From Methanohalophilus halophilus (GTDB lineage Archaea; Halobacteriota; Methanosarcinia; Methanosarcinales; Methanosarcinaceae): DNA of 64,000 nucleotides. Numbering within the stretch: position 1 is the stretch's first letter; each line of letters begins with the position of its first letter. The notes below the pieces were generated by a model. It searched no databases. It was given only the letters and a program-made list of their open reading frames with translations, and was not told the DNA's origin. Positions 53,957 to 64,000 of this stretch are shown here, one piece after another. Both the position numbers and the translations under genes were made by a program. The stretch spans positions 758,057-822,056 of the forward strand of contig NZ_CP017921.1 of the NCBI RefSeq assembly GCF_001889405.1, in the 5' to 3' direction.

Positions 53957-56879
<2,923 letters not shown>

Positions 56880-56991
56880 TTGCTTATTCCAGGCGAAATC
56901 AGGTATGTAATATGAAAAAATACACGGTCAGATGAAACGCAAAGTTTATGACGGTTGCGTCATAGAATCACGCTTCGCACATGACCAATGT

Positions 56992-57063
56992 GCCAAGGTG
57001 GCGGAGCGGCTACGCAATCGCCTGCAGAGCGATTCCATCCCGGTTCGAATCCGGGCCTTGGCT
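56992..57063 (+). tRNA. tRNA-Cys (anticodon GCA)
   Basis: 72 bases between 23S and 5S. Acceptor GCCAAGG pairs with CCTTGGC, discriminator T as required for cysteine, anticodon arm ATCGC-CTGCAGA-GCGAT, T arm CCCGG-TTCGAAT-CCGGG. No CCA is encoded. Confidence 0.96.
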
Positions 57064-57081
57064 TTCATCCATCTCATATAA

Positions 57082-57213
57082 GTTGAGAACAGCGGCCATA
57101 GCGGCAGGGTAACTCCTGTACCCATCCCGAACACAGAAGATAAGCCTGCCAGCGTTGTATACGGTACTAAAGTGCGAGAGCCTTTGGGAACTATACATCG
57201 CTGCTGACTCAAC
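57082..57213 (+). rRNA. rrf: 5S ribosomal RNA
   Basis: Contains the 5S core GGCCATAGCGGCAGGGT, CCCATCCCGAACACAGAAGATAAG-type loop B/C segment and GTGCGAGAGCCTTTGGGAA. The terminal helix involves CAGCG with CGCTG, extended outside by GTTGAG and CTCAAC, which could be a processing stem. Mature ends therefore may be a few bases inside the given limits. Confidence 0.9.
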
Positions 57214-60559: not shown

Positions 60560-60883
60560 TTAGTGGCAACTGCCGCCGCATGAACCGCATCCACTCATTT
60601 CACTGGGATTGTCGATGACAAATCCATTGCCCTGAGGGGTTTCTATGAAGTCGACTGTAGCTTCGGAAAGTTCTTCATTGATGTCATTTGCCATCACGAT
60701 TTTAATTTCTTTGTCGGTGACAGTAACATCATCTTCTTTGGTTTCATTGTCAAGTGCCATACCATACTGTACGCCACTGCAACCCATTCCTGCGACAAAA
60801 ATCCTCAATGCGTGATCTTTCTTGTCTTCCGATTCCATCAGGGTTCTAAGTTCTGTTGCTGCCTTTTCTGTTATCTCTATCAT
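60560..60883 (-). CDS. IscA/ErpA-type iron-sulfur assembly protein
   Basis: 107 residues. IEITEKAATELRTLM at the start and LRIFVAGMGCSGVQYGMAL with the first cysteine are typical of A-type carriers. The usual CGCG ending is here CGSCGGSCH, with three cysteines. It would hold or pass Fe-S clusters to targets; the window is rich in Fe-S enzymes. AAGGAGAG stands before the ATG, with a TATA box near 60930. It stands upstream of NAC on the same strand with about 50 bp between. Confidence 0.88.
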   Translation of the reverse strand: MIEITEKAATELRTLMESEDKKDHALRIFVAGMGCSGVQYGMALDNETKEDDVTVTDKEIKIVMANDINEELSEATVDFIETPQGNGFVIDNPSEMSGCGSCGGSCH

Positions 60884-60978: not shown

Positions 60979-62040
60979 TCACATTATTTCCACATCGTTA
61001 TCGACCGGATTTAACAATACTTCCCCATTAGTAGCGTTTATTTCCACCGAATTTCTTTTACCCTTAGCTTCCCATACGGGCAAATAAACGATCTCAATTT
61101 CCATTTCAATCTCTTTTTTGGAAGGAGAAATCCGTTTGTGTTCGGAAATTATAGCTTCGCCTATAGTGTTATCGAATTTGACATCCCGGGTGTATTGGTC
61201 AATAATTCTTTCATAGATAGCTTTGGTGGCCTCTTCTTTTGTAACGATTGGGGCTTTAACCTCATAGTCGCTGACTTCTACCTCTATCTGATTATTTATT
61301 CCAGGCAGGTCCAAATCCTCAAAAATTTCATTCATTGAATTAAAGTATCCCTCTCCATCACCTTCTATGTCTATTATCTTGGAGCGGAATTGTCTCTGTG
61401 CCTGAATATCATAAGTATATTTCCACAAAGGTACAAACTTGAGTGCCGCAGTCGTGACATCTCTTTGATGTGGTTTTGCAATTGATATCGCACGCTCGCC
61501 GGTAATATTTACAGGGGCACTGCGCAAGTCGATTACCTTGTTTTCAACTGAAGGTATCGTCTCAACGTCAGATTTCACCTTAGGTTTGCTTTCAATTGCT
61601 CTATTTTCCACTTCCTTCTTGGTGCCAGCAAACATATTTGGTTTCTTTTTCTTGTCATCAGCGATGATATATTCTTCTGTGGCTTTTTCGACCGGGGTAC
61701 TTTGTTCTCCCAGTTCAATACTTTCCCCCTCGATGTCTGCCAGCACAGCGTTACCGATCTGGTATGCAAGTTCTTCCCTGTCCCATACAATAACCCCTTT
61801 TTGCTTTGCAAATTCAATTTGTTCCTCAGAGGCATTTCCTGTTGCTACTATAAGGCCAGCCCCGTCGCGGATGTTGTATGCAAAATCTTCAATATATGAT
61901 GTATTCAGGAGATTACTGAATTTTATGTACATTTTCTTTTCATCTTTTTCTGCGATCAGGTCAGCGATACTGGAGTCCACTATCCTGTATCCAGATGATG
62001 TGAAAATGTCCTTCAATATTTGTGTAACGTTTTGTTTCAT
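60979..62040 (-). CDS. nuclease-fold protein of unknown function, partner of pseudo-KaiC
   Basis: 353 residues. Residues 1-95 look like a restriction-endonuclease (Mrr-like) fold: TQILKDIFTSSGYRI, the MYIKFSNLLN strand, GAGLIVATGNASEEQIEFA and VIVWDREELAYQIG. A charged linker of about 85 residues follows, then a domain at 185-353 with YLPVWEAKGKRNSVEI and a final ATNGEVLLNPVD that resembles a PepSY-like ending. A PD-(D/E)xK acid-lysine pair is suggested but not complete. It follows the KaiC-like gene by 26 bases, so both are one transcript. Confidence 0.7.
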   Translation of the reverse strand: MKQNVTQILKDIFTSSGYRIVDSSIADLIAEKDEKKMYIKFSNLLNTSYIEDFAYNIRDGAGLIVATGNASEEQIEFAKQKGVIVWDREELAYQIGNAVLADIEGESIELGEQSTPVEKATEEYIIADDKKKKPNMFAGTKKEVENRAIESKPKVKSDVETIPSVENKVIDLRSAPVNITGERAISIAKPHQRDVTTAALKFVPLWKYTYDIQAQRQFRSKIIDIEGDGEGYFNSMNEIFEDLDLPGINNQIEVEVSDYEVKAPIVTKEEATKAIYERIIDQYTRDVKFDNTIGEAIISEHKRISPSKKEIEMEIEIVYLPVWEAKGKRNSVEINATNGEVLLNPVDNDVEIM

Positions 62041-62066
62041 TTTTCCACCAATTTAAGTTATGAATT

Positions 62067-62831
62067 TTAAAGTACCCTCGTAGTAGTTTCAAGCTCAATT
62101 CCTTTCTCGGTTACATTGTAGGGAATTGTCCGGTTTAAGGGGATCATACCTCTCATCTTACGAATCAATATGGACCTCTCGATTTCACTTCCCCTTTCCC
62201 GCATTCTGAATTCAATGACACCATCACAGACATTTTTCAGATTATTTTCAACTATATTGTCATGCATGCCAGCGGTCATTGTTATCAAATGAACGGCACC
62301 TGTAGCTTTTCCTACAGATGATATTATCTCGATTGTATCTACTACATTATTAAGCTCATAAGCTCGCAGGAAATAAGATATGGAATCTATAATTCCCCTG
62401 TATTTTTCTTTTCTCTCTTGTGTAGCAGTTGCTTTGAGAAGATTCATAGGATCTGTATTTTGTTTTATGAAATCTTTCGCAGAAAGGGATTCTGAATATG
62501 ATTTTGGGAGGACATTATAAAAGCGCAGGCTGTAGGCGTCTACGAAATTCATAGTTCCGCTTTCAATGTAATCATCTATGTCCCATCCAAAATTTTTCAT
62601 TTCAGAGGTTATTTCGGAAACCGGCTGTTCTGATGTCAGGTAATAAACGTTTTCCTCATCAGTTAGTCCCCCATAAGCAAATTGCTGGGCAAATATTTCC
62701 GAGCTGGCTCCGGGTTCTGCAAGTAATAGAATAGTACTTCCCCGCGGCACTCCACCACCCAGCTGCACATCAAGTCCCAGTATTCCTGTGCGTACTTTTT
62801 GTGCCATGTTTTCATCGAAAGCGTAATCCAT
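62067..62831 (-). CDS. KaiC/RadA-like ATPase-fold protein with degenerate Walker A
   Basis: 254 residues of the RecA superfamily in KaiC/GvpD style: [25 protein letters not shown] leads into what should be the P-loop, but it reads [11 protein letters not shown] with no GKT/S lysine. The strand-loop [13 protein letters not shown] and Walker B region ([15 protein letters not shown]) remain, as does the [13 protein letters not shown] segment. It probably no longer hydrolyses ATP in the normal way and may act as a sensor or scaffold. CGGTGA precedes the ATG. First gene of a two-gene unit with the nuclease-fold protein. Confidence 0.78.
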
Positions 62832-62930
62832 GTAATCACCGCAATATCAATTATAAATTTAAATCTCCAATCTTTTTATATATTCATTCCTCTTAGTTTT
62901 TATAGTTATAGTTTTATTTACGGTGATTCG

Positions 62931-63293
62931 ATGATAGCTATAGATGACCTGAAATTCAAAGATAACCTTATCCCGGCAATTGTGCAGGACCATGAGACCG
63001 GGGATGTATTGATGTTTGCATACATGAATCGCGAATCCCTTGAAAAAACTCTTGCTAGTGGTATTGCACATTACTGGAGCCGCAGTCGGGGGAAGTTGTG
63101 GAAAAAAGGGGAGAGTTCGGGCCACATTCAATATGTAAAGGACATCCTTGTAGATTGTGATATGGATACCCTGCTCCTGAAAGTAAGACAAGATGGGGGC
63201 GCATGCCATGTGGGTTACAGGTCATGTTTTTACAGGAATATTAAGGGAGATATAGTTGGTAAAAGGGTTTTTGATCCTGATGATGTTTATTGA
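62931..63293 (+). CDS. hisI: phosphoribosyl-AMP cyclohydrolase
   Basis: 120 residues from ATG 62931, chosen for CGGTGA just upstream; a longer open frame has no ribosome site. Third step of histidine synthesis. The signature [28 protein letters not shown] and the metal ligands [11 protein letters not shown], followed by [12 protein letters not shown], are intact. It is the stand-alone form without a HisE domain. The rest of the histidine genes are outside the window. Confidence 0.96.
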
Positions 63294-63345: not shown

Positions 63346-64000
63346 ATGGATAATCCTAAAGCTCTGAAGATCGTACCCGATACAAGCGTAGTTATAGATG
63401 GCCGTATTTCCCAAAAGGTGAAGGAGGGAGAGTACAGGGGATCAAAGGTTTTGATTCCCGAAGCTGTAGTGGCCGAATTGGAAGCCCAGGCAAACAGGGG
63501 GCTTGAGATCGGGCAAAAGGGGTTGGAAGAGCTTAATCAGCTTAATCGGTTTGAACAGGAAGGTCTTATAGAGATTGATTTTGTGGGGCAGCGTCCCAAC
63601 CTTGAGCAGGTGCAACTTGCAAAGGGAGGGGAAATAGATGCCCTTATACGATCAACTGCAGAGGATTTTGATGCGCTTTTTGTTACGGGGGACAGGCTCC
63701 AGGCGGACTTTGGTCGTGCCAGGGGGCTGGAGGTGGAGTACATTCATCCACCATCGGCTGAGTTAATTCCTCTGCACATAGAGAATTTTTTCACTGATGA
63801 GACGATGTCGGTACACCTGAAAAATAAAGTATCCCCGATGGCCAAAAGAGGCAGTATTGGGGACGTAAGATTTGAAAAAATCCGTGATGAACCCTGCAGC
63901 TATGGTGAACTGCATCAGATGTCTAGGGAACTTCTGGAGAGGGCCCGGGCTGACAATGAATCTTTCATTGAAATGTCTACGGGCGGGGCTTCCGTTTTGC
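63346..64000 (+). CDS. PIN domain-containing ATPase (PINA type), 3' end outside window
   Basis: The frame is open from ATG 63346 to the window end, 218 codons. Residues 8-130 are a PIN nuclease-like domain: VPDTSVVIDGR with the first acid, AVVAELEAQANRG, GGEIDALIRSTAEDFDALFVTGD with later acids, and QADFGRARGLEVEYI. The part after that, ending in SFIEMSTGGASVL, is the linker to the ATPase and KH-type parts expected in this family (PilT-N/VirB11-like). The Sulfolobus relative is a hexameric ATPase linked to DNA repair. The TATA-like AAATTAAATATC near 63314 indicates a leaderless transcript. Confidence 0.85.
   Translation, partial: MDNPKALKIVPDTSVVIDGRISQKVKEGEYRGSKVLIPEAVVAELEAQANRGLEIGQKGLEELNQLNRFEQEGLIEIDFVGQRPNLEQVQLAKGGEIDALIRSTAEDFDALFVTGDRLQADFGRARGLEVEYIHPPSAELIPLHIENFFTDETMSVHLKNKVSPMAKRGSIGDVRFEKIRDEPCSYGELHQMSRELLERARADNESFIEMSTGGASVL

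Follow-up and report, generated by a model that had tools for sequence, protein, structure and literature searches.

The two adjacent genes analyzed here, referred to as KL and PN, are best regarded as separate genes that lie side by side in one lineage. KL, a KaiC-like protein without the Walker lysine, appears to be an ancient pseudoenzyme that keeps the shape of an ATPase and has lost its active site. PN is an archaeal protein conserved widely and independently of KL, in which a PepSY-like module is joined by a flexible linker to what appears to be a dead REase-like module; it came to lie behind KL within the Methanosarcinaceae. In our preferred reading, held tentatively and at somewhat worse than even chances, KL is the dead KaiC-family partner of KW, a Walker-positive KaiC-family ATPase, in a mixed assembly serving nucleic-acid or translation housekeeping, and PN is a separate gene that probably uses the KL promoter. 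The genes are located in a stretch of 64,000 nucleotides from Methanohalophilus halophilus (contig NZ_CP017921.1, positions 758,057 to 822,056), hereafter the window, with the following features:

60563-60883, minus strand: gene for an IscA/ErpA-type Fe-S protein, downstream of PN (TIGR00049, 1e-26; synteny); context, outside the KL-PN unit.
60979-62040, minus strand: PN, a protein of 353 aa (ORF, AF2, Foldseek, Pfam on family members, active-site survey).
62041-62066, minus strand: gap of 26 nt between the KL stop and the PN start, with a ribosome-binding-like GGTGG at 62045-62049 (sequence).
62067-62831, minus strand: KL, a KaiC-fold protein of 254 aa (ORF, PF06745, AF2, Foldseek, ortholog alignment).
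62873-62884, minus strand: TATA-like element AATATATAAAAA upstream of KL, candidate promoter of KL-PN (sequence).
62922-63293, plus strand: hisI, divergent to KL (NF000768, 3e-51; synteny); context.
63346-64000, plus strand: start of a PIN-ATPase-KH gene of the PINA-like family (PRK13764), running off the window (ortholog at locus L105: NF010335, 5e-258; synteny).

KL and PN are co-directional and 26 nt apart, exactly at the coordinates listed, and an additional archaeal promoter would not fit into the gap. Moreover, the TATA-like element upstream of KL is conserved in both of the Methanohalophilus species from which KL has been deleted (described below). Based on the short gap, the lack of room for a second promoter and the retention, in these strains, of the promoter-like region of KL before PN, the two genes are probably transcribed together from the KL promoter in this lineage, as had been assumed in the initial annotation of this DNA. 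Elsewhere in the window, the ORFs at 56196-57212 resemble spurious ORFs shared between genera, the pattern that a putative rRNA operon at this place would give.

KL matches the Pfam KaiC family (PF06745) with an E-value of 7e-35 and 120.9 bits, against a cut-off of 26.6, and its AF2 model (pLDDT 85) retrieved PH0284 and KaiC CI in Foldseek searches, with E of about 1e-19. The first half of the earlier label "KaiC/GvpD-like" is thus upheld, while the second half has to be dropped: no GvpD family is among the matches of KL in Pfam and NCBIfam at E<=1, and KL is therefore better named KaiC-like than GvpD-like. At the P-loop site, residues 38-45 read AEPGASSE and do not match the Walker A pattern GxxGxGK[ST], so that a KaiC fold and a lost P-loop, the two features of inactivated KaiCs, are found together in KL. 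The Methanohalophilus protein retains Asp149 of Walker B as well as K225/R227, the trans-acting pair. This K-x-R pair aligns with K224/R226 of KaiC, residues that are supplied by the next subunit and hold the ATP phosphates (PMC2777353). The catalytic E77 of KaiC is not conserved in KL, and the position of E78 is usually occupied by Glu or Asp.

In an alignment of 56 sequences, all KL orthologs covering the P-loop site are without the lysine, and the single row with a GK[ST] P-loop (L025) is a distant Bathyarchaeotal KaiC. What had been noticed in one sequence therefore holds throughout the KL orthologs examined, which come from eight family-level groups within the Halobacteriota (f1, f2, f10, f12, f16, f22, f31 and f35); f10 is inferred to be Archaeoglobaceae from dsrA scoring above the cut-off in 6 of 10 genomes tested and mcrA in 1 of 10. 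The site is mostly conserved as A-E-P-G-x-x-x-[E/D]-x-F in Methanosarcinaceae, and in f10 the Walker B Asp is often replaced by Asn too. Purifying selection on KL is strong (dN/dS 0.03-0.10), which, together with the missing lysine in all orthologs, indicates that the site results neither from chance nor from a sequencing error. In the tree, KL orthologs stand apart from Walker-positive KaiCs, save for some long, unplaced rows. Regarding the trans-acting pair, the Lys is kept in every KL sequence compared in the alignment, and the Arg in most of the groups other than f10, f31 and f35; as this second residue is often Lys or Glu in f10 and is Pro in f35, the finger of KL is not intact everywhere.

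Structure prediction of the single chains, which the initial annotation had proposed as a check, confirmed the KaiC fold of KL and a REase-like N-domain in PN. The latter protein consists of this domain (residues 1-105), a linker (about 112-165) and a PepSY-like C-domain (about 168-345); AF2 modelled both domains confidently and showed residues 114-160 of the linker as disordered, in agreement with the linker and separate C-terminal domain described earlier. The Mrr-like fold proposed for the N-terminus also stands: Foldseek searches with the N-domain returned several REase-fold proteins (probability 0.9-1.0, E 1e-3 to 1e-1), and Mrr_cat was matched in 4 of 45 PN family members in Pfam. A weak PepSY match was found in the C-domain of 19/45 members (best E 4e-4), with Methanohalophilus PN below the Pfam cut-off, and a profile search of the PDB with PN gave no match. 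The catalytic signature D-(D/E/Q)xK was found in none of the PN lineages surveyed; D27 is kept in most members, and the E/Q and the K are conserved in no family. An active nuclease was rejected as a reading of PN because this signature is missing in all lineages, and its N-domain is predicted to be a dead REase-like module, another old pseudoenzyme. Within the order, 134 of 150 genomes carry PN, and within the phylum 117 of 295.

The KL-PN adjacency was found only in Methanosarcinaceae. There, it is kept in the KL-bearing genomes examined, with the genes co-directional and close, which leaves room for a lineage-specific functional link between the two genes. In f2, f12, f16, f22, f31 and f35 both genes are present and unlinked; f10 has KL and lacks PN, whereas the reverse is seen in the Methanomicrobia-like families and in the genomes taken to be Methanosarcina. 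Over 295 genomes, 39 of which hold both genes, the co-distribution of KL and PN amounts to a phi of 0.13. In addition, two Methanohalophilus species (G009 and G122) have lost KL through a shared internal deletion; what is left of it is a scar ahead of the intact PN, with the final codons of KL and the TATA-like region upstream still recognisable. PN of these species shows about 91% identity and a dN/dS of 0.11-0.19 versus KL-bearing relatives. The combination of a KL scar and an intact PN is most readily explained if PN is transcribed from the KL promoter and can do without KL, and this natural deletion offers a ready-made comparison.

A much closer association was observed between KL and KW, whose Methanohalophilus ortholog lies at G000:C1:744999-745769. 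Among the 295 genomes, KL occurs in 78 and KW in 90 (both in 76, KL only in 2, KW only in 14, neither in 203). The resulting phi is 0.87, as compared to 0.13 for KL/PN, and is partly due to shared ancestry: related genomes are not independent, so that Fisher values do not serve as probabilities here, and the joint absences represent few events, only about three or four of them independent. The comparison is also framed by its choice of genes, as KW was selected for its nearness to KL in some lineages and PN was the sole comparison gene, other KaiC paralogs lying outside it. Completeness is 63% and 89% for the two genomes with KL only, and among those with KW only, several contain a divergent KL that scores below the cut-off. 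True KW-only cases exist (G014, G009/G122, f5 and f3), which suggests that the dependency runs from KL to KW.

The Methanohalophilus genome has about 17 KaiC-family loci, and other partners of KL are therefore possible. One of its loci is a second Walker-less KL paralog, 39% identical (G000:C1:304240-304989; L123:5732-6493), with one in-frame TAG that aligns with a Tyr in the intact copy of G083 (L124). As the genome encodes PylS, this TAG may be a pyrrolysine codon; alternatively, the paralog may be a fresh pseudogene. Another KaiC-like protein without the Walker lysine, with ADPLSMSE at the site, is encoded at G000:C1:1898874-1899533 (L247).

The neighbours of the two genes differ among lineages. 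A divergent hisI and a PINA-like PIN-ATPase-KH gene are neighbours of KL in f1, f10, f16 and f35, the conservation of hisI next to KL thus extending to Archaeoglobaceae-like genomes, and this arrangement is the ancestral KL context. The PINA-like gene is also near KL in f22 and f31, where KW and KL lie on opposite sides of it, and in f12 it is adjoined by KW. At 10 of 11 Archaeoglobaceae-like (f10) loci and at one f35 locus, KL is followed by cgi121 (KEOPS), mostly with a 4-nt overlap; cgi121 was not seen beside KL outside f10 and f35, and in Methanohalophilus it lies elsewhere (L249). The f10 pairs can be found at loci L216-L227, including L218. In f2, KL is adjoined by the Tsr3 gene. As for PN, the archaeal recJ is directly upstream in five deep families (f12, f16, f22, f31 and f35), with overlaps or gaps within 44 nt observed at L141, L142, L145, L146, L154, L170 and L176. 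In Methanosarcinaceae, IscA/ErpA, the conserved downstream neighbour, and NAC follow PN. In the Methanomicrobia-like families, PN has a FAD-dependent disulfide reductase gene downstream and a divergent NrpR-domain gene, and in f3 a CfbC/NifH-like gene (F430 biosynthesis) lies 12-22 nt upstream (L092-L095).

These results bear on several other explanations. The initial annotation took KL and PN for one functional unit, and an obligate complex of both, working as a DNA-binding sensor or chromosome-associated regulator, would suit two apparent pseudoenzymes encoded co-directionally and closely spaced in KL-bearing Methanosarcinaceae. However, the proposed co-occurrence survey went against it, with a phi of 0.13 over 295 genomes, each gene occurs without the other, the two are unlinked in six family-level groups, and PN is kept under purifying selection where KL was naturally deleted. 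We consider such a complex highly improbable, and the impression of a self-contained KL-PN module is corrected accordingly. Even less can be said for an anti-phage defence module, to which we assign a negligible probability. The REase-like fold of PN would be in keeping with it, given that nuclease-fold proteins are common in defence, but PN shows no active site and the PADLOC models of known defence systems gave no match at E<=1. PN is single-copy, near-universal in the order (134/150 genomes) and found in synteny with hisI, IscA and NAC, which is the opposite of what defence genes show; a defence role was thus rejected on the basis of a housekeeping-type distribution and synteny, and a DNA-sensing module is not supported either.

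An alternative that we regard as unlikely, though less so than these two, is that KL works as an ATP-independent factor similar to RadA paralogs (like Sso2452/aRadC), binding DNA and modulating recombination with the PINA-like ATPase, while PN, with its Hjc/Mrr-like dead nuclease fold and RecJ linkage, takes part in the same process. Among solved structures, SSO2452 and PH0284 belong to those nearest to KL; Sso2452 has been reported as an anti-recombinase (PMC8708640), and in Sulfolobus there is a functional link between PINA and Holliday-junction resolvases (PMC8775617). The ancestral position of a PINA-family gene beside KL and that of RecJ directly upstream of PN in five deep families point in the same direction. 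Nevertheless, the closest homologs with data are Walker-positive, a DNA-binding signature was not identified in KL, and the neighbours of PN vary by order (IscA/NAC; NrpR-domain and FAD reductase; CfbC), so that the RecJ linkage is not general. Less probable still is that KL, by way of Cgi121, assists or regulates the KEOPS complex in the t6A modification of tRNA, or else the quality control of translation. The mostly overlapping KL-cgi121 pairs in f10 and f35 and the Tsr3 gene beside KL in f2 would fit this proposal, but cgi121 lies elsewhere in Methanohalophilus and was not seen next to KL outside those two groups, and a link of Cgi121 with KaiC, or with Hel308, was not found in the literature searched.

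Returning to the preferred reading, in which KL is the dead partner of KW, KW would hydrolyse ATP and KL would join it in a mixed ring or dimer. K225/R227 of KL may extend to the ATP site of the adjacent subunit, donating a finger, or KL may act as a scaffold; either way, it could tune the ATPase of KW and present its conserved C-terminal tail. The PINA-like ATPase and KEOPS Cgi121 suggest nucleic-acid or translation housekeeping as the setting, and a chromosome- or nucleic-acid-associated role is possible for KL and for PN. A bolder version, which we find rather doubtful, sees KW and KL as the active and dead subunit types of one conserved heteromeric machine of KaiC type, linked to the PINA-like ATPase and KEOPS; it would be an archaeal counterpart of catalytic/pseudo-catalytic paralog rings, retained since early Halobacteriota and jointly missing from Methanosarcina and the Methanomicrobia-like families. 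Archaeal genomes carry many KaiC-like proteins, which have been proposed as signalling hubs, but for few of them, to our knowledge, has a partner or a function been established. Here, the distribution and synteny of the genes and their conserved residues point to one specific pair of active and dead KaiCs, linked to KEOPS and a PINA-like ATPase.

Compared to known systems, the N-domain of PN has the same fold as Mrr/Hjc-type REases, TIP26 (TBP-interacting protein), Bax1 and Can2/Cdn1, but the D-(D/E)xK site is found in no PN, and PN adds the linker and the PepSY-like C-domain. That C-domain, with its weak PepSY match in part of the family and a Methanohalophilus member below the Pfam cut-off, recalls the YpeB/double-PepSY-like archaeal proteins (PMC6393860), from which PN differs in joining it to a REase-like domain. 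The archaeal KaiC/RadA-paralog ATPases PH0284 (2dr3) and SSO2452/aRadC (2w0m) match KL best in the PDB, in structure as well as in sequence, and both have the intact P-loop that KL lacks. KL shares with KaiC CI the fold, the Walker B Asp and the trans-acting K-x-R pair, but it is single-domain and is missing the P-loop lysine (K52) and the catalytic Glu (E77) of KaiC. In a limited literature search, no earlier case was found of a dead KaiC that stands alone, is tied in its distribution to an active KaiC and lies in an operon with cgi121. Inactivated KaiC-like domains (iKaiC) of archaea, in contrast, have been described (PMC5847659, citing Makarova et al. 2017), and they resemble KL in combining a KaiC fold with a degenerate ATP site. 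Inactivation of KaiC domains is therefore already known, and the link to KW and the cgi121 operon may be new: the iKaiCs of that report are fused to receiver or HalOD1 domains, whereas KL is stand-alone, ancient, present outside haloarchaea and accompanied in its distribution by an active KaiC.
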